Of a DNA stretch of 32,678 nucleotides, positions 3,471-17,948 are shown piece by piece. Source of the stretch: an uncultured Verrucomicrobiota bacterium (lineage in GTDB: Bacteria; Verrucomicrobiota; Verrucomicrobiia; Opitutales; Opitutaceae); NCBI GenBank assembly GCA_903904685.1, contig CAIVDS010000059.1:1-32678 (forward strand), in the 5' to 3' direction. The notes under the pieces are model-generated. The model did not search any database and was not told where the DNA came from. It worked only from the letters and a program-made list of their open reading frames with translations. How positions within the stretch are numbered: position 1 is the stretch's first letter; each line of letters opens with the position of its first letter. A program made the position numbers and the translations under genes.

Positions 3471-4610
3471 TCAGAGCGTGACGACGGTCCGGGTGCGATG
3501 CGACTCAAGAGCGGCAGCCCAAAGCTCGTGGTGGGCGACGGCCTCGTCGGGGGTGGCGCAGCCGAAACGGTCGCCGAGCACGCCGGCGCGCTCGGCAAGG
3601 AAGGAGGCCCACATCTGCATGAGAATGTCGGGAAAACCCGGTTCGAAGATGCCGCCGGTGATCGTCTTGAAGGGCGTGCCGAAGCCGAGGTCGGTGGCGG
3701 TCCATGCCTGCTCCTTGCCACGCACGTAGGTAAGGAGCGTTTTGGGATGCTTGGTGGAGTAACGCACGCCAGCGTCGGTGCCGAGGATCTCGATTTCCCA
3801 AGAGTTGGTGTCGGTGGGGCTCATGCGCTTGGTCTCCAGCGTGAGCGGGACGCCGGGCTGGCCGGGAAAGTCCACGGTGCAATGAAGCACGGCGTTGTCC
3901 CAAGTGTCGCACGCGGCGGTGCCGCCTTTGCCGTCGGGGCGCTCGGTGTAGATTTTCTGGAGCTGGGCGTGGAGGCGGACGGGTTTCCAGCCGAGGCGAA
4001 TAGGGACATGGGCAACATGGAGGCCGAGGTCGTTCATCACGCCAGCCTCGCCGCAGAATCTATTCTGGCGTTTCCAGTTGATGGGCTTGGTCGGGTCGAG
4101 GTCGCTGGAGTGAAGGAAGCTGTTGCGTAGCGAAAGAATTTTGCCGAGCGAGCCGGAGCGGGCGATCTGGATGGCGCGTTGCACACCGGGCAGGAAAGGG
4201 AACTCGGAGGAGACGCGCACAAAGCGGCCGAGACGCGCGGCCTCGTCGCGAATACGGCGCGCGGCGGCGAGGTCGATGCCGAAGGGTTTTTCGGCGAGGA
4301 GATCCTTGCCGGCGCGGATGGCGTCGAGGTAGAGCGACTCGTGGAGATGGTGCGGGACGGCGATGTAAACCGCGTCGATATCGGCGCGGGCGAGCTGGGC
4401 GCGGTGGTCGGCATCGAAATATTTTACCGTGGGCACCTGGCGGAACCAGTCGAGGGCGGTGACGTTGACGTCGCATACGGCGACGAGTTCGGGGCGCACA
4501 GGGCAATCGAGGAGTGCGAACCAGCGGCCGAAGGCGCTGGCGACTTCCTTGCCCATGAGGCCGGCGCCGATGACACCGATGCGGACGACGGAAGAGGCGG
4601 GAGTGCTCAT
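3471..4610 (-). CDS. Gfo/Idh/MocA-family NAD(P)-dependent oxidoreductase
   Basis: This is a 379-residue enzyme with an N-terminal Rossmann fold (GAGLMG at 15-20, then AVCDVN), the family motif AEKPFGID with catalytic Lys108, and a C-terminal alpha/beta domain (about 130-360). The region with MNDLGLHVAHV has the His expected of the active site. Family members oxidise or reduce sugars, inositols and sugar derivatives. It starts only 4 bases after the aldolase stop codon, so the two are co-transcribed. In the operon it could oxidise the incoming sugar, epimerise it through a keto intermediate, or reduce the aldehyde released by the aldolase; the sequence does not decide between these. Confidence 0.88.
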   Translation of the reverse strand: MSTPASSVVRIGVIGAGLMGKEVASAFGRWFALLDCPVRPELVAVCDVNVTALDWFRQVPTVKYFDADHRAQLARADIDAVYIAVPHHLHESLYLDAIRAGKDLLAEKPFGIDLAAARRIRDEAARLGRFVRVSSEFPFLPGVQRAIQIARSGSLGKILSLRNSFLHSSDLDPTKPINWKRQNRFCGEAGVMNDLGLHVAHVPIRLGWKPVRLHAQLQKIYTERPDGKGGTAACDTWDNAVLHCTVDFPGQPGVPLTLETKRMSPTDTNSWEIEILGTDAGVRYSTKHPKTLLTYVRGKEQAWTATDLGFGTPFKTITGGIFEPGFPDILMQMWASFLAERAGVLGDRFGCATPDEAVAHHELWAAALESHRTRTVVTL

Positions 4611-4614
4611 GGGA

Positions 4615-5445
4615 TCAGGCGAGAAGTTTGAAGGCCTGCGCGGGCGAGACGTTTTCGTGGAGGATAGCCATGAGGGCGCGGGTCATCGCGGCGGGATTGG
4701 GGTGTTGGATGATGTTGCGACCGTAAACGATGCCGCGGGCGCCTTGGGCGACCAAAGCGGCGGTGCGTTGAAGGATGATCTCGTCGGAAACGCGGCCGCC
4801 GCCGCGCACGAGAACGGGGATGCAGCCGGCGGTCTCGACGACCTTGTGATAAATGGAAACGTCGTCGGTGGGGTCGGCCTTAATGATGTCGGCACCGAGT
4901 TCCACGGCCTGACGGACGAGCGGAATGATCTTCTGCGGATCGCCGTCCACCATGTAGCCGCCAGCCTTGGCGTTGGTCTTGAAGACGAGGGGCTCGATCA
5001 TGAGCGGCATTCCGTAGTGGTCACACTGCGGTTTCAGGCGAAGGATATTTTGGATGCACTGGTCGGTAACCTCGGGCTGCTCGGGGATGCGGAACAGGTT
5101 CACGACAACGCAGGTGGCGTCGAGGCGGAGGGCCTGAAAAACGGGCTCCTCGATCATGCGCGAGAAGAGGGTACGCGGAAGCTGATTTCCGTAGACGTTG
5201 GCAACGTCGGTGCGCAGGACGAGGGCGGGCTTGGGGCGGACGGGGAGGCGCTGGAGATGGGGGGCCTGCCCCACGGTGAGCTGGATGGCGTCAGGGGCTG
5301 CGTCCACGAGGGTGGCGACAGCCTTGGGCAGGTTTTCGATACCGGCGAGGAAGGAGGCTTCGTTGAAAAAGCCGTGATCGATCGCGACGTCGAAGCAGCG
5401 GCCGGTCTGGGGATTGAAGAGGCGGTTGAGGCGGGCGGTTTTCAT
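4615..5445 (-). CDS. Class I (Schiff-base) aldolase, FbaB/DhnA/LsrF family
   Basis: This is a 276-residue TIM-barrel aldolase. I chose the ATG at 5445; a TTG six bases further upstream would add only two residues. The barrel opens with DVAIDHGFF (19-27). The presumed Schiff-base Lys189 sits in GADIIKADPTDD. Phosphate-binding glycines follow in LVRGGGRVSDE, and the barrel closes with ARGIVYGRNIIQHPNP. Relatives cleave ketose phosphates to DHAP plus an aldehyde (FbaB) or act as thiolases on phosphorylated diketones (LsrF). Position right after a DeoR regulator and with an isomerase and kinase downstream favours cleavage of a phosphorylated ketose. It is not an obvious glycolytic aldolase, because a class II enzyme is already encoded at the window's left end. 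Confidence 0.85.
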   Translation of the reverse strand: MKTARLNRLFNPQTGRCFDVAIDHGFFNEASFLAGIENLPKAVATLVDAAPDAIQLTVGQAPHLQRLPVRPKPALVLRTDVANVYGNQLPRTLFSRMIEEPVFQALRLDATCVVVNLFRIPEQPEVTDQCIQNILRLKPQCDHYGMPLMIEPLVFKTNAKAGGYMVDGDPQKIIPLVRQAVELGADIIKADPTDDVSIYHKVVETAGCIPVLVRGGGRVSDEIILQRTAALVAQGARGIVYGRNIIQHPNPAAMTRALMAILHENVSPAQAFKLLA

Positions 5446-9070: not shown

Positions 9071-10453
9071 TTAGAGTTGTGATGTTTTGAATACGTCCCG
9101 CTTGGTGATGGCGGCTTTGATGGCCCGGGTAAGACGTGCCAGATCTTCTTCTTTAACGTCCGGTTTTCCGGCGGCCACCACGGCCCATTTAGCCGCATCG
9201 TCAAAACGCTTCAGCTCGTAGGCGACGTAGGCAAGGAAGACACAGGTCTGGCCGGGCTTGTCGAGGTTCCCCTTGGCGACGGCTATTTCGAGACGTGCGT
9301 AGGCCTCGGCAGGCTGGTCGTGGGCGTGGTAGAATTGCGCGAGGGAGAATTCGATCTGACCGTCCTCCGGGAGAATACGGATGGCCTCTTGGAGAGCCAC
9401 CACGGCCCTGGCATCATCGTGTTGCTGCTGGCAGGCGAACGAGAGAAGTTCCCAATTGCGCCGGGTGCTTGCGATCGAACCGTCCTTGAGTCCATTGGTC
9501 AAAAAAACTGCCATCTGGTCGAATTGCCGGAGATGAAAATAAAGGGCGACGATGTTGGAATTATCCGAAGGCGTGTCGAGCAACCCGTGAGATTGAGCGC
9601 GCTCATAGGTGATGAGCGCACGAAGATGATAACGGCGACTATCTCCTGCGTTTTTGGCGGCTTCGGCGAGCGAGTAGTAGGTCGCAAGGAGTTGCTGCCA
9701 GTAGAGTAATTTGCTCGGCTCACGTTGCACAAGAAGCTCAAGGATGTCCGCCGTCTTGCGGGTTTCTCCAAGCTGCTGGAGTGCGGCCAGCATGATGAGG
9801 TAAGCTTGAGTGTTGACCTGCAGATTCAGGTAGAGGCTTTTCTCCGCAGCCATGAGGGACTGGCGGATTTTTTCAAAATCGGTATGCGCAGGATCAAAGG
9901 TGGCCAGAGTGTAGAGAATCGAGGCGGCGAAGAGTTGGTTCTCCACCGATAGCTTGGGCGATTCACACAACCAACGATCAATGCAGGTATGGGCTTTTTC
10001 GAGGAGGATCTTTTTTAATGCAGGATCCTTAATCTCAATCCCCTGCCGATAATAAAGCTGACTGAGCGTGTAAAGAGTGCCGAGCACCGTGTTCTGGTCG
10101 AAATAATCATGGCGCCCCCCAATCTTGAGTCCTTCTTCAAATGCGCCAATAGCGGCGTCATATTGGGAGTCCGTCAGAAGAACTTGGCCCTTAATCTGAG
10201 ACAGGAGAGCCCGATCATAGCTCTCCGCGGGGGCGACGGCGATCAACGTGTCGAGCAGACGAATGCCCTCCTTGTAATTTTTAACCTCGACCAGAGCGCG
10301 CAACTTGCCCAGCTCGGCGGATACTTGAGCAGACAATTCCTTCCCAGGCGTATCCTGCGCCTGAATTTTAAGGACAAGTGAGAGCGACGCGATCAGCAGC
10401 AAGGCGGCGATGCCAAGGGAACGATGAGGAAACTGGAATGGAAACGGCCGCAT
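9071..10453 (-). CDS. Exported TPR-repeat protein of the TonB operon
   Basis: This 460-residue protein begins with a signal peptide or anchor (residues 1-32, hydrophobic IAALLLIASLSLVL, then IQAQ). Helical TPR-like repeats follow along its length, for instance KNYKEGIRLLDTLIAVAP (59-76), SQYDAAIGAFEEGLKIGG (95-112), DDARAVVALQEAIRILPEDGQIEFSLAQFYHAHDQ near 350-380 and KRFDDAAKWAVVAAGKP near 430. TPR proteins scaffold protein contacts. It sits 3 bases after the TonB stop codon and 8 bases before the coiled-coil genes, so it is probably a periplasmic partner of the ExbB-ExbD-TonB machine. No enzymatic domain is visible. Its coding sequence appears less GC-rich by eye than that of the sugar operon. 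Confidence 0.85.
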   Translation of the reverse strand: MRPFPFQFPHRSLGIAALLLIASLSLVLKIQAQDTPGKELSAQVSAELGKLRALVEVKNYKEGIRLLDTLIAVAPAESYDRALLSQIKGQVLLTDSQYDAAIGAFEEGLKIGGRHDYFDQNTVLGTLYTLSQLYYRQGIEIKDPALKKILLEKAHTCIDRWLCESPKLSVENQLFAASILYTLATFDPAHTDFEKIRQSLMAAEKSLYLNLQVNTQAYLIMLAALQQLGETRKTADILELLVQREPSKLLYWQQLLATYYSLAEAAKNAGDSRRYHLRALITYERAQSHGLLDTPSDNSNIVALYFHLRQFDQMAVFLTNGLKDGSIASTRRNWELLSFACQQQHDDARAVVALQEAIRILPEDGQIEFSLAQFYHAHDQPAEAYARLEIAVAKGNLDKPGQTCVFLAYVAYELKRFDDAAKWAVVAAGKPDVKEEDLARLTRAIKAAITKRDVFKTSQL

Positions 10454-10456
10454 GTC

Positions 10457-11110
10457 TTAATTAAGCCTAAAGGGAATGGTTTGTTCAACGCGACGCGTGG
10501 TGACGGCTACACCGCCCTTTTTCCCGGGACTAAACTTCCACTTGAGCACGCCATCAAGAACCGCGCTGTCAAATCCACGATTACTGGAACTCACAACACG
10601 GGGATCACGAACGTTCCCCGTAGAATCCACCATGAATTCTACGGTCACCTGCCCCTAGATCCCAGCACGCCTCAGATCAAAGGGATAGATCGGTAGCGGC
10701 CTGAAAACGGGTTCGGGGTTCTTGTCGAGATTCGCCAAATCGAAGATGTTGCCGAGACCCGCTCCAAGGCCGCCTAGGCGGCCTTTGGGAATGAATATGA
10801 TGCCAGTGGGCCGGGCAATGCTAGGCTGCGGTGGTGGCTGAATTTGCTGGGTGAAGGACGAAGCCGAGATCGAAGGAACGTCGACCTGCATCGGGGGGAT
10901 GACGTTAAAGATATCCGCAATCTCGCCGGGCTCATGTATTTCCTCGGGTTTGTCGGGCTCGACCGGCGGAATGGGCATGAGCTCCATCGTAGGGATTGCC
11001 TGGGAGACCGGCTTGAACGCGGGGCGGGCCTTGAGGAGTTGCCCGCCGAAAAAAACTCCGAAATGCAGCAACAGGGAAACAACCAAAGCAATGGTGAGAT
11101 TACGGCTCAT
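10457..11110 (-). pseudogene. tonB: TonB energy-transducer gene interrupted by an in-frame TAG (codon 152)
   Basis: Read as one frame, this is a 217-codon TonB. It has an N-terminal membrane anchor (residues 6-22, TIALVVSLLLHFGVFFG), a proline-rich spacer (about 40-100, with ELMPIPPVEPDKPEE and QPPPQPS) and a C-terminal TonB domain starting at PVFRPLPIYPFDLRRAGI. The domain continues after the stop as GQVTVEFMVDSTGNVRDPRVV and ends KWKFSPGKKGG...VEQTIPFRLN. The break is a single TAG at 10655-10657 within the stretch where relatives have A-G-I-x-G-x-V. No base is lost, and one C-to-T change from CAG (Gln) explains it. Split, the products would be 151 residues without the receptor-binding domain and a 63-codon remnant from GTG 10648. 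It could be a true nonsense mutation, a sequencing error or a read-through codon. The flanking genes look intact. Confidence 0.85.
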
Positions 11111-11114
11111 GGCT

Positions 11115-11549
11115 TCAACGTCCGGTGGGCCGGTAGGCAGTCTCGATGGAGACTTGGGTAATGCCGGCCTTGCGCACTTCGTCGAGGGCTTTCACGGCCG
11201 CGCCGTATTTGGCTTTGTCGTCGCCGGTGATCAACACGCGGACCGCGGAGTGGGTGCTTTTGTAGTCGGCGAGACGGGGTGCGATTTCGTCAAAGCCCAC
11301 CAGTTCCTTGTTCCAGTAGGCGGTGCCCGCATCGGAAATCTGGAGCACCACAGTTTGTGCGTCAGGATCGGCGGGTGCAGCCGTCGTGGCTGCGGGCAGA
11401 TCCACGGGCACGGATTGAATTGTGTTCAACGAGAGCGTGAAGAGGACAAACGTAGCCAGTAGAAAGAAGATCACATCGATCAGAGGGATGATCTCGATGC
11501 GGACTTTTTTCGGACCGCTGCTGTAATATCCATTGGGGAAACCTGCCAT
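11115..11549 (-). CDS. exbD: ExbD/TolR biopolymer transport protein (second copy)
   Basis: This 144-residue protein starts at ATG 11549, matching the start of its neighbouring paralogue. A TTG at 11579 would add ten residues and overlap the upstream stop. The ExbD core is plain: RIEIIPLIDVIFFLLATFVLFTL, with the essential membrane Asp in PLIDV, followed by a periplasmic domain ending DEVRKAGITQVSIET. ExbD with ExbB uses the proton gradient to power TonB at the inner membrane. It lies between the first exbD (26-base gap) and tonB (4-base gap). Its membrane segment is almost identical to that of the first copy while the periplasmic domains have diverged, which suggests an old duplication. Confidence 0.92.
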   Translation of the reverse strand: MAGFPNGYYSSGPKKVRIEIIPLIDVIFFLLATFVLFTLSLNTIQSVPVDLPAATTAAPADPDAQTVVLQISDAGTAYWNKELVGFDEIAPRLADYKSTHSAVRVLITGDDKAKYGAAVKALDEVRKAGITQVSIETAYRPTGR

Positions 11550-11575
11550 AAAAGGGTGCTGGAAACGGAGAGAAC

Positions 11576-12007
11576 TCAAGAGCCGGCGGGCCGGACGAGG
11601 GTTTCGATGAAAATTTTGGTGATGCCGGCCTTGCGCACCTCGTCCACCACATAGCGGGCCTGCTCGAAGGAGGCGTTCTCATCCCCGTTGATGAGGATGC
11701 GAGGGGTTGGCTCGACCTGCTTGTAGGCCTGAAGCCGGGCGATGAACTGATCCAGCGTTACCGGTTGCTTGTCCCAGGCGAGCGTGCCCTCGGCGGTGAT
11801 GGAGAGGGTGACGGCACCCTCGGCGTTACGCGGAATACTGGTGTCGGTCGCGGGAAGTTTCACGGGCAGACCACCGGTCTTATTTAGCGAAAGCGTAAAT
11901 AGCACGAAGGTTGCGAGCAGGAAGAAGATCACATCGATCAAAGGAATAATCTCGATGCGCGCCCGCCTCGGGCCACTGGAGGAAAAATCGCTGGAATATC
12001 CGGACAT
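11576..12007 (-). CDS. exbD: ExbD/TolR biopolymer transport protein (first copy)
   Basis: This 143-residue protein starts at ATG 12007 (MSGYSSDF). The open frame extends to 12067 but that would overlap exbB by 38 bases, and the paralogue alignment supports the shorter form. The signature RIEIIPLIDVIFFLLATFVLFTLSLN contains the proton-path Asp. The periplasmic domain runs to DEVRKAGITKIFIETLVRPAG. It begins 22 bases after exbB. Two ExbD subunits beside one ExbB suggest a heteromeric ExbD pair in this motor or alternative pairing with different transducers. Confidence 0.92.
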   Translation of the reverse strand: MSGYSSDFSSSGPRRARIEIIPLIDVIFFLLATFVLFTLSLNKTGGLPVKLPATDTSIPRNAEGAVTLSITAEGTLAWDKQPVTLDQFIARLQAYKQVEPTPRILINGDENASFEQARYVVDEVRKAGITKIFIETLVRPAGS

Positions 12008-12029
12008 CGGAAAGGGGAGCCGGAAGCGG

Positions 12030-12686
12030 TCAACCGGTCGAATCAGCCTTCTTGATGATGACCTCAAGCGCGTTCAAGGCATCGGAAATGGCATGCTTAC
12101 TGCCCTCGATGCGCGCGTTGAGGATGTTGTAAGGAAACAGGCCGATGATCGCGATGGCCAGACCGCAGGCGGTGGCGATGAGCGCCTCACCGACGCCACC
12201 GGTGATCTTGCTGGCGCTGGCGGTTATGTCACCTTCGCCGAGCGCGCCAAAGGTGTTCATCATGCCGGTTACAGTGCCGAGAAGACCGAGCAGCGGGGCC
12301 GCCGTGATGCAGGTATCAAGCACCGCCAAACCCTGGTGGAAACGATTGAGCTCCTTGTTGGCTGCACGCAGGAATGCGTTGGAAAGCGAGTGTTCCCTGT
12401 GGGTGAGCGCATAAGTGAGAATACGGGCGACGTAGTCCCGGCTTTTACGACCAAGCTGCACGGCCCCCTCGACGTCGTGATTTTCAACCAGATCCAGAAT
12501 CTTTTCGACCACCTCGGGCTCGCGCGTGGCATTCTCCATTACAAGGAAGATCGTGCGCTCGACCACAACGGTGACGGCGAGGAACGACACCAGCAAAATC
12601 GGCCACATGATCGGGCCGCCATGGCTGAAAAGTTCCATAGGGGTCTGCCCCATCAGAAACGCCAACGTAAGAGAAGTAGTGGTCAT
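12030..12686 (-). CDS. exbB: ExbB/TolQ/MotA proton-channel protein
   Basis: This 218-residue protein has the three-helix ExbB/TolQ pattern. Helix 1 is around residues 25-48 (PIMWPILLVSFLAVTVVVERTI), and a cytoplasmic stretch follows with DVEGAVQLGRKSRDYVARIL. Helix 2 is in TCITAAPLLGLLGTVTGMMNTF (about 124-145) and helix 3 in GGVGEALIATACGLAIAIIGLFPYN (about 162-186). The LLGLLGTVTGM and EALIATACGL motifs are the channel-lining signature. It forms the inner-membrane motor with ExbD and energises TonB. It is the first gene of a seven-gene minus-strand run, so the promoter should lie just beyond 12686, where a 12-bp direct repeat is found. Confidence 0.94.
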   Translation of the reverse strand: MTTTSLTLAFLMGQTPMELFSHGGPIMWPILLVSFLAVTVVVERTIFLVMENATREPEVVEKILDLVENHDVEGAVQLGRKSRDYVARILTYALTHREHSLSNAFLRAANKELNRFHQGLAVLDTCITAAPLLGLLGTVTGMMNTFGALGEGDITASASKITGGVGEALIATACGLAIAIIGLFPYNILNARIEGSKHAISDALNALEVIIKKADSTG

Positions 12687-13403: not shown

Positions 13404-16400
13404 ATGAGCACACGCGTGAAACACCTCCTCCGGCTGATGCTGGGCCTTTGGGCCGGAGGACTGTCTGCGCAAACGGTGACACTCAACGGCTCCTTTACCG
13501 GTAGCACACTCGACTCTGGTTGGACGGTGGGCGGCACGGGCTATACTCCCGTGCTCACCGCATCCTCGGCGGGAGGCAACATCGACACTGCTGGCAACGG
13601 CTGGCTGCGCTTGACCAGTGCAAACACGAATCAGGCGACCTACGCTTACGACACCAATTCCTTTGCCAGTAAAAACGCGACGATCACCGCCTCGTTCAAC
13701 TATGTTTCTTATGCGGGCAGCGGCGCGGATGGCATCACCTTCTTTCTGGCCGATTCCAGCAAGACATTCGGCGTGGGTGCCTACGGCGGTTCCCTCGGCT
13801 ATGCGCAAAAAACAGCCGCCGGCGGCGGCGGCGCCGACATCAACGGCATGAACGGCGGCTACATCGGCCTCGGTATCGACGAATTTGGCAATTATGCGAA
13901 CCCCACCGAAGGGCGCATCGGCGGACCTGGCTTCATAGCAGATACTGTCTCGGTGCGCGGTCCCGGCACCGGGTTGACTGGTTACACTTACCTTGGCGGC
14001 ACCGGCGCACTGCCGAACTCGCTGGATTCGCCCAGCCCCAACACCACCCGCCCGACCACCAATACCTTCCAGATCGTTATCACCGCAACCAACCAGCTCA
14101 CCGTTTACATGGATCGGGGGGCGACCGGTAATTTCACGGCGCTCTACAGCATCGATCTTTCCGGTTATGCCCGCCCCGACAATCTCATCATGGGATTCAC
14201 CAGCGGCACCGGATCCTCGACCAACATCCACGAGGTTCAGACGGTCAACCTTTCCAGCGTGGTCGCCAATCTCTGGACCAACGTCAACGGCGACAGCGCT
14301 TGGGGCACCGGTAACGACTGGTATGGTTCTCCCAGCGGCGTTGTCCCCTCCAACTATGCCGACATCCTGCTCGACAACACCTACGTCAGCACCGCCCAGA
14401 CCATCGACGTCGCCAGCAACCGCACCATCCGTTCGCTCCAAATTGATGCGCCCTTCAGTTACACGCTGAACAACGGCACCCTCACCTTTGACACCGGCGG
14501 CATCGCCGGCCCCAGCGGCATCTTTGTCTCGCAAACACACGGCTCCGCCACCCAGACGGTCAACTCCGCCCTCGCGCTCAACAACGCCATTCAGATCCAA
14601 AACAACAGCGCCGGCGCGCTCAATCTCAACGGCAACGTCACCACCAACGGCAACGCCATCACTCTGAACGGCAGCGGCGCCGCCACGCTCGCCGGTGTCA
14701 TTTCCGGCGCCGGCGCCATCACCCAGAGCGGCACCGGCACAACGACTCTCTCCGGTGCGAACACCTATTCCGGCGGCACCACGATTTCCGCCGGCACGCT
14801 CAATGCCAACAACGCCACCGCGCTCGGTTCAGCCGCCGTCGCGCTGAACGGTGGCACGCTTGGCTCGACCAATGGAAGCACCATCGGCAACGCCATCGCG
14901 CTGAATGGCTCCGCCGGACTTTCCGGCATCACCACCAGCGGCACGCTTACGCAGACCGGAGGCAGCTACACGCTGGACATGGCCGGTGCCACCCAGTCCG
15001 GCGCGGTCAACCTGTCCAACAACAACACCGGTCGCACGCTCACGACGCAGGTGGACAGCGGCACTTCGTATATCACCGGCGTCATCGCCAACGGCGGCAC
15101 CGGCGCGGGCGGCCTCACCAAGACCGGCGCGGGCATTCTCCAGCTTTCCGGGGCCAACACCTACACGGGCGCCACCACGATCAACGCCGGCACCGTACAG
15201 CTCGGCGCCAGCAACGTCCTCTCCCAAAGTTCGACCGTGAACATCGCGGGAGGCACGCTTAACCTGAATGGCAACTCAAACAAGGTCGGTAATCTCACCT
15301 TCTCCAGCGGTGCCACCCTCGATTTCGGCACCGTCGGCAGCAACACCAGCTTTGTCTTCGCCAACCTGACTCCCACGCCTACCGGCGTCTTGACCATCAA
15401 CAATTATGTTGGCCCCACCAGCAGCAACTTCGGCGGCACGGGCGACTTCCTTGGCACCACCACTAACAATCTGTCCAGCACCCTGCTCAACCAGATATAT
15501 TTCTCCGGCTACGGCACAGGCTCCTTAGAAAACAACGGCAACCTGACCAGCGCCGGCAACGGCCTCGGCAACGCCTACCGCATCGCCCCCACCGCCATCA
15601 ACTGGACCAACTACACGTGGACCAGCAACAGCAATCAGAACTGGAGCACCAACTCCAACTGGCAGGGCGGCACCCATCCTCCCAGCACCTCCAACCCCAC
15701 CAATGTCTTCGTCGATTTCGGCACTGGCACCCAGACGGCCGTCCTCATCAACACCAACAGCACCATCAACGCCCTGCGCTTTGATTCCAGCGCGGCCGCC
15801 TACACCATTACCGATAGCGGCACTCGTACCCTGACTTTCCAAAACGGCACCAGCCTTGCCTTCGTGCAGCAGCAGTCCGCCAACAACCAGGCGCTCAACC
15901 CGGCAAACATCCTCATCAAAAACAATATGGTTTTCGACGTCACCGGCGCAGGTAACCTCTCGGTGGGCGCGGCCATCAGCGACGGTGGCAATTCCTTGAG
16001 CGTCACCAAGACCGGCTCAGGCGGGAAACTCATTCTTACCGGCAGCAATTCCTATGGCGGCGGCACCAGCATCCAGACCGGCATTATTCAGGCGCAGAAC
16101 TCCGGTGCGCTCGGTTCTGCCGCGGCCACGGTCTACAATGGAGCGGCGCTCAACCTTTCCGGCGGCATTAGCCCCACCAACACCCTTTCGCTTACCGGCA
16201 CCGGGGTGAGCGGCAACGGCGCCCTCGACAGCGTCTCCGGCAGCAACAGCGTGTCGGGTGCGATCACTCTCACCGGCGACACGCGCATTCAGGCCGACTC
16301 CGGCAGCACCTTGACCGTCTCGGGTGGCATCGGCGGTACCGCACACAACCTTGAGTTGACTGGGGCGGGCAGCCTCGCCATCAGCTCCGCCATCGCCACC

Positions 16401-17948
16401 GGCACGGCTGGCGTGACGCTCAACGGTTCCGGCACCACCACGTTCTCCGGAGCGGCCAATACCTACACCGGCGACACCACCGTCAACAGCGGCACGCTCG
16501 CCCTTTCAAAATCCGCCAGCACCACCTCCATCGCCGGCAACCTCGTCGTCAACGGCGGCACCGTCAACCAGACCGCCACCGGCCAGCTCACCACCACTTC
16601 GAACATCACGGTCAACAGCGGCTCCTACAACCTTTCCGGCGCCGGCACTATTACCCAGACGGTCCAGTCCCTCAATAGTTCCTCCGGCGGCACGGTTTCG
16701 ATCGGCACCTCGGACACGCTCACCGTCAGCGGCAGCGGCACCAGCACGGTCGGCGGTATTATCTCCGGTGCGGGTAGTCTTGCCACGTCGGGAACGGGCG
16801 GAGTTTTTCTCGGCGGGGCCAACACATACTCGGGCGGCACGACCATCGGCGGCGTCGTCACTGCGGCCAACAACAGCAGCCTCGGCACCGGCGCGGCCGC
16901 CATTAACACCAGCGGCAATCTCCAGATGCAGGGCGGCATCACGCTGGCCAACGCCTTCACCCTTTCCAGTGCCGGCACCTCGGCCAACGACGGCGCGTTT
17001 CAAAACACCTCCGGCAGCAACACTGTCTCCGGCACGGTCACGCTCTCGGGCAATTCCCGCATCCAGTCCGATTCCGGCACGCTCGCTTTGACCAACACCG
17101 TCGCCCTCGGGGCCAACACGCTCAACGTCGGCGGCAGCGGCAACGCATCCGTCAGCGGCGCGATCACCGGAACCTCCGCCAGCAGCATCACCAAGGACGG
17201 TGCGGGCACGCTCACCCTCAGTGGCAACAACTCCGGCTTCCTCGGCACCGTCGTCGTGTCCAACGGCACCGTCATCGCCGGCGCCTCCAACTGCTTCAAC
17301 AGCGGCAACGCCATCACCGTCAACACCGGCGCGACCCTTAACCTTAACGGCCAGACGCTCACCACCGGCCCCATTACCAGCACGGGCACGATCGCGTTTG
17401 GCGCGGGGGCCGCCGCTACACTCACGGGAGCCAGCACGCTGGGTGGCAACTTCACCGGCGCGGGCACGATCATCATCGGTCCCGGCGCGAGCGTCACGCT
17501 CGGCACCAATTTCAACAATCCCAACATCAACTTCGTCCTCAACGGTGGCACGCTCAACCTGGGCAGCGGCACGACGCAGACCTTCGGCAGCCTCACAGTG
17601 ACCGGCTCCAGCAACTCCGTCATCGACTTCGGCTCCACCGGAGCGACCACCGCGCAGTTTTCCAGCGTCAACGTCACCGGAAGCGGTCTGCTCAACGTGC
17701 AGAACTGGACCAACGCCGTGGACTACTTCCTCGACTCCACCAGCACCGGTGCGCAAGGCACGCTGCCGAATACCAAGATCGTCTTTGCGAGTTTCACCGG
17801 TGCCGACACCAAATATCTTTCCTATGGCATAAGCAACGGCCAGCTCACCCCCGTGCCGGAACCTTCGACCTACGGCGCGATCCTGCTCGGCGGCGCGTGC
17901 GGTTTGGTCTTCTGGGTCCGCCGGCGCCGGAGCGACCGCAAGAGCTGA
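13404..17948 (+). CDS. Giant lectin-domain / autotransporter-associated beta-strand-repeat surface protein with PEP-CTERM anchor
   Basis: This 1514-residue protein is exported by a signal peptide (residues 1-22, hydrophobic LLRLMLGLWAGGLSA). Residues about 25-290 resemble a legume-type (L-type) lectin fold, with GSGADGITFFLADSS, GGSLGYAQ and GLGIDEFGNY. The rest is a Gly/Thr/Ser/Asn-rich beta-helix region with repeats of the PATR type (core G-A-N-T-Y-S-G-G-T-T-I followed by G-T-L). They lie near residues 450, 582, 879, 1016 and 1137, with a degenerate copy near 1273. The C-terminus is a PEP-CTERM signal: VPEPSTYGAILLGG, a hydrophobic helix and RRRR. PEP-CTERM proteins are sorted by exosortase, which is not encoded here. 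There is no beta-barrel autotransporter domain. A surface polysaccharide-binding or matrix role is likely but unproven. Confidence 0.92.
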   Translation: MSTRVKHLLRLMLGLWAGGLSAQTVTLNGSFTGSTLDSGWTVGGTGYTPVLTASSAGGNIDTAGNGWLRLTSANTNQATYAYDTNSFASKNATITASFNYVSYAGSGADGITFFLADSSKTFGVGAYGGSLGYAQKTAAGGGGADINGMNGGYIGLGIDEFGNYANPTEGRIGGPGFIADTVSVRGPGTGLTGYTYLGGTGALPNSLDSPSPNTTRPTTNTFQIVITATNQLTVYMDRGATGNFTALYSIDLSGYARPDNLIMGFTSGTGSSTNIHEVQTVNLSSVVANLWTNVNGDSAWGTGNDWYGSPSGVVPSNYADILLDNTYVSTAQTIDVASNRTIRSLQIDAPFSYTLNNGTLTFDTGGIAGPSGIFVSQTHGSATQTVNSALALNNAIQIQNNSAGALNLNGNVTTNGNAITLNGSGAATLAGVISGAGAITQSGTGTTTLSGANTYSGGTTISAGTLNANNATALGSAAVALNGGTLGSTNGSTIGNAIALNGSAGLSGITTSGTLTQTGGSYTLDMAGATQSGAVNLSNNNTGRTLTTQVDSGTSYITGVIANGGTGAGGLTKTGAGILQLSGANTYTGATTINAGTVQLGASNVLSQSSTVNIAGGTLNLNGNSNKVGNLTFSSGATLDFGTVGSNTSFVFANLTPTPTGVLTINNYVGPTSSNFGGTGDFLGTTTNNLSSTLLNQIYFSGYGTGSLENNGNLTSAGNGLGNAYRIAPTAINWTNYTWTSNSNQNWSTNSNWQGGTHPPSTSNPTNVFVDFGTGTQTAVLINTNSTINALRFDSSAAAYTITDSGTRTLTFQNGTSLAFVQQQSANNQALNPANILIKNNMVFDVTGAGNLSVGAAISDGGNSLSVTKTGSGGKLILTGSNSYGGGTSIQTGIIQAQNSGALGSAAATVYNGAALNLSGGISPTNTLSLTGTGVSGNGALDSVSGSNSVSGAITLTGDTRIQADSGSTLTVSGGIGGTAHNLELTGAGSLAISSAIATGTAGVTLNGSGTTTFSGAANTYTGDTTVNSGTLALSKSASTTSIAGNLVVNGGTVNQTATGQLTTTSNITVNSGSYNLSGAGTITQTVQSLNSSSGGTVSIGTSDTLTVSGSGTSTVGGIISGAGSLATSGTGGVFLGGANTYSGGTTIGGVVTAANNSSLGTGAAAINTSGNLQMQGGITLANAFTLSSAGTSANDGAFQNTSGSNTVSGTVTLSGNSRIQSDSGTLALTNTVALGANTLNVGGSGNASVSGAITGTSASSITKDGAGTLTLSGNNSGFLGTVVVSNGTVIAGASNCFNSGNAITVNTGATLNLNGQTLTTGPITSTGTIAFGAGAAATLTGASTLGGNFTGAGTIIIGPGASVTLGTNFNNPNINFVLNGGTLNLGSGTTQTFGSLTVTGSSNSVIDFGSTGATTAQFSSVNVTGSGLLNVQNWTNAVDYFLDSTSTGAQGTLPNTKIVFASFTGADTKYLSYGISNGQLTPVPEPSTYGAILLGGACGLVFWVRRRRSDRKS

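Follow-up and report, generated by a model that had tools for sequence, protein, structure and literature searches.

TonB energizes the uptake of nutrients across the outer membrane. The tonB gene of the window (the whole stretch of 32,678 nucleotides analysed here) carries an in-frame stop codon, and the locus raises the question of whether this bacterium has lost a working TonB or whether only its draft sequence is at fault. In our assessment, the stop is probably a real nonsense mutation that inactivates the one canonical tonB we could find in this genome, in a lineage that is losing the operon.

A compact tonB operon with one in-frame stop

The interrupted gene lies in a compact operon with the order exbB-exbD-exbD-tonB-TPR, which is common to relatives and comprises the following features:

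12030..12686, minus strand: exbB-like gene, open (PF01618, 98.2 bits)
11576..12067, minus strand: first exbD-like gene, open (PF02472, 92.2 bits)
11115..11579, minus strand: second exbD-like gene, open (PF02472, 87.8 bits)
10655..11110, minus strand: 5' part of tonB, with ATG start, N-terminal hydrophobic anchor and proline-rich spacer (both recognized by eye) and the start of the C-terminal domain, ending in TAG; no Pfam match when searched alone
10655..10657, minus strand: in-frame TAG, codon 152 of 217; the column is free of stops in all 39 aligned orthologs
10457..10654, minus strand: 3' part of tonB, the remainder of TonB_C, untranslated unless by read-through or restart; PF03544 at 52.2 bits when searched alone
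9071..10453, minus strand: TPR-repeat protein, conserved operon partner, open (TPR matches in Pfam)

Translated on the minus strand, 11110-10457 gives 151 codons, the TAG, 65 further codons and a terminal TAA, and no second lesion was seen in tonB besides the TAG. In the read-through product of 217 codons, TonB_C (PF03544, 65.2 bits) extends over residues 140-216; the stop therefore falls inside the C-terminal domain, as originally predicted, and a complete TonB_C in one open frame is absent. It is situated 3' of the motif 'YPFDLRRAGI' and 5' of 'GQVTVEF', a position that we take to precede the strands with which TonB pairs with the receptor. Sequence matches to the solved TonB proteins 2k9k, 6fip, 1xx3, 1u07, 2gsk and 2grx likewise extend over the stop.

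The neighbouring genes are open and separated from tonB by gaps of only 3-4 bases (the upstream exbD ends at 11115, and the TPR gene starts at 10453), which bears out the description of the flanking genes as tightly packed and intact. ExbB and two ExbDs were encoded upstream of the ortholog in all 17 loci L006-L022, and the TPR gene lay downstream in 16 of them, the stretch of L013 ending before this point. The TPR protein was matched in 10 of the 13 genomes of the genus, its own genome counted. Elsewhere in the window, a 1514-codon open reading frame (13404-17948, plus strand) shows repeated 'GANTYSGGT' motifs, which we assume to be autotransporter-like, and a C-terminal sorting-like tail.

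Within the family set of 252 genomes, own genome counted, 193 had a tonB match at E 1e-20 or better, and among the matches listed none except the tonB of the window had an internal stop. Thirty-nine orthologs (loci L006-L022, L035 and L157-L177) were aligned, and all of them extend past the column of the stop, where they have a sense codon, encoding T in 12, K in 10, S in 8, N in 5, R in 2 and E in 2 cases. A chance pairing of two frames is thereby ruled out, the proposal that the two same-phase frames are one TonB split by TAG is confirmed, and the stop is not a conserved feature of relatives. The proposed C-to-T change from CAG finds no support as the origin of the stop and was rejected, since neither CAG nor Gln occurs at this column in any of the orthologs. 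TonB-like matches with an internal TAG were also noted in two more distant genomes (G022:C108 and G026:C71); these are short and weak. The gene thus shares operon order, length, TonB_C and the matches to solved TonBs with known TonB proteins of such operons, and differs from them in the in-frame TAG inside the domain.

Probable operon loss in the genus and constraint after the stop

If the stop is used, translation would end at codon 152, and the truncated TonB would keep its membrane anchor and spacer and lose the receptor-contact strands. Such a protein is presumably non-functional, and with the contact strands lost the ExbB/ExbD motor of the operon would be left without a working cognate TonB. 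This presupposes that the organism itself carries the stop, rather than the assembly alone, as we infer from the evidence below. The lesion would then form part of a wider loss of the operon in a receptor-poor clade.

The genus set of 13 genomes, in which the genome of the window is G000, bears on this proposed loss. The tonB of the window found only weak matches of another type in G004 and G005 and no match in G006, and the TPR protein of the operon had no match in any of these three genomes. The best ExbD identity in them was 36-38%, as compared with 64-79% in the nine other relatives; several ExbD matches list stops, which probably reflect alignments overrunning gene ends. An rpoB tree could include 10 of the 13 genomes (G001 is fragmentary, and G003 and G005 gave no rpoB match), and in this tree G000, G004 and G006 group together with a support of 99 for DNA and 96 for protein. 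The search covered the tonB, exbD and TPR genes of the operon, and none of these was found in G004 or G006, the two genomes grouped with that of the window. Plug-domain matches, a measure of receptor number, amounted to three in G000 (one below the cut-off), two each in G004 and G005 and three in G006, and to between 5 and 15 in the nine others. Across the genus, an intact operon tonB is absent from all four receptor-poor genomes and present in all nine receptor-rich ones; nine of the 13 genomes have the operon intact, that of the window has it with one stop, and in the remaining three it was not found. The completeness of G004, G005 and G006 is 87-92% (88% for G004, 92% for G006), so that some absences could be gaps, which weakens the loss pattern and does not remove it.

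G004 and G005 encode another TonB (PF03544, 59-71 bits), whose contig also carries an ExbD-like gene and, in G005, an ExbB-like gene as well. PF03544 matches in G006 reached only about 31 bits, and a cut-off TonB may lie beside the ExbD-like gene on contig 81 of this genome.

Constraint may be slightly relaxed in the 3' part of tonB. GC at third codon positions (GC3) drops across the stop from 0.68 to 0.52, the largest drop among 40 sequences (p=0.031, uncorrected), and identity relative to the ExbDs ranks fourth lowest of 39 for the part beyond the stop and eighth lowest of 39 for the part preceding it. Of the near-invariant alignment columns, 31 of 35 are kept ahead of the stop and 21 of 24 past it; other sequences span the same range, and hence there is no clear decay. 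Together, these three results lend weak support to a real lesion of modest age. The original prediction of a recent lesion in a motor that is otherwise maintained is only half borne out. The gene is interrupted, its neighbours are open and the aligned relatives are free of the stop; but given the operon genes not found in G004 and G006 and the hint of relaxed constraint, the lesion looks like a step in the loss of the system. A single stop, open neighbours and operon genes not found in nearby genomes are what this case has in common with nonsense-mutation pseudogenes in lineage-specific loss; it departs from the typical picture in that uninterrupted receptors remain and decay is at most slight.

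Alternatives: sequence error, read-through or a split gene

The main rival to a nonsense pseudogene is that the tonB of the organism itself is intact and the stop reflects an error of consensus or assembly, or else a variant from a minority strain, the draft being perhaps metagenome-derived. We consider this possible, if doubtful. It is consistent with a draft of 114 contigs, with the uninterrupted receptors and with the conserved residues kept after the stop, and two further conserved genes of the same genome also show single clean in-frame stops. One is an ABC transporter ATPase, presumably of the LivF-type subfamily, with a TAA (L104, G000 contig 88, 5000-13000; at about 3824-4630, plus strand), whose PF00005 match spans the stop; the ABC ATPase frame just upstream of it is open, and it is the one interrupted case among 44 PF00005 matches, in a stretch that was chosen because of the stop. 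The other is an aldo/keto reductase with a TAG (L123, G000 contig 92, 20001-40000; at about 15133-16236, plus strand), where a PF00248 match of 244 bits spans the stop. Ordinary pseudogenes and consensus errors both fit these two stops. Against an error speaks the fall in GC3, as a consensus error should leave the downstream part normal, and so does the fact that the operon genes were not found in the genomes grouped with this one by rpoB.

A scan for coding continuity over 420,679 bases of G000 and 400,000 bases of G010 returned 13 and 11 candidates, respectively. The scan is insensitive, having missed the tonB stop itself at its threshold, and as the ABC ATPase stretch was chosen for its stop, the counts indicate no excess over G010 and provide no error rate. 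The 13 from G000 include the two interrupted genes just described; nine were submitted to Pfam, of which five are boundaries between two genes; and the remaining two (L113:18173 and L121:18034), outside the Pfam set, were judged from their translation to be noise. Ten of the G010 candidates were submitted to Pfam, and six of these look like gene boundaries, L142:15212 having been left out as too short. One of these six (L134:14003-14647) has a 31-bit PF01311 match over the stop, but this match overlaps stronger FliP and Bac_export_3 matches to the two sides of it, and the candidate was rejected as an interrupted gene in favour of a boundary. A tblastn comparison of all open reading frames between two genome samples suffered from GC-rich spurious frames, which generated hundreds of false stop sites. 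A cleaner between-genome comparison, covering few codons, recovered the tonB stop; the further hits of this comparison (one in L127, a pair in L117 and another pair in the window on the opposite strand) look like wrong-frame open reading frames and were not counted.

Full-length TonB could in principle be made despite a genuine stop, through a suppressor tRNA, recoding or programmed read-through, and the downstream part is indeed in frame and mostly conserved. However, none of the 42 tRNAs found in the genome, all typed by ARAGORN, has the anticodon CTA, and TAG serves as an ordinary terminator, ending 27 of 286 sampled gene-like open reading frames. Recoding is therefore unlikely, and a reassignment of TAG was rejected. 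Moreover, TAA interrupts one of the two other genes and TAG the second, which is not the pattern of one reassigned codon, and none of the 39 orthologs has a stop at the tonB column. The read-through considered as an alternative in the original prediction is thus highly improbable. Even less credible is a split gene in which the second part restarts at the GTG at 10648 and both pieces work together. This GTG lies two codons past the TAG, is preceded by a G-rich stretch and opens a frame of 63 amino acids; yet neither a membrane anchor nor an export signal is visible in the second piece, which would be expected to remain cytoplasmic and out of reach of the receptors, and a split at this place is found in none of the 39 orthologs.

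Receptors and other TonB candidates

A search of the genome with PF03544 did not find a second canonical TonB. The only other match over the cut-off was a 284-amino-acid protein of the TonB_2 type on contig 58 (27.8 bits), which adjoins ExbB- and ExbD-like genes in a cluster that appears to be Tol-type. Two further matches fell below the cut-off. One, a 387-amino-acid frame on contig 25 (15.0 bits), looks TonB-like in layout by eye; the other lies on contig 113 (13.8 bits).

The genome encodes four receptor barrels, all uninterrupted. Three of them were read as whole open reading frames; two of these match both plug and barrel, and the third matches the barrel alone. Uninterrupted barrels would be odd if the TonB system were dead. 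According to a published survey (PMC3422733), all Verrucomicrobia searched there have TonB, together with 1-25 predicted receptors; none of the papers listed in our literature search describes the present locus.

As a single gene lesion, the tonB stop is ordinary; the point of interest is how the four uninterrupted receptors are powered, if at all. Should the nonsense mutation be real, the loss of a TonB motor may have been caught midway in this genome, with receptors retained, and the genome would offer a small test case for TonB-dependent receptors losing their power source. A further, rather unlikely scenario is that a clade in the genus keeps intact TonB-dependent receptors after loss of the canonical TonB operon, powered by a TonB_2 (Tol-type) protein, in G000 the one on contig 58, or by another non-canonical transducer. 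One TonB-dependent receptor gene (L087, contig 64; 1353-3296, minus strand) adjoins a homocysteine S-methyltransferase gene (3621-4802, plus strand), which suggests a possible role of this receptor related to vitamin B12.
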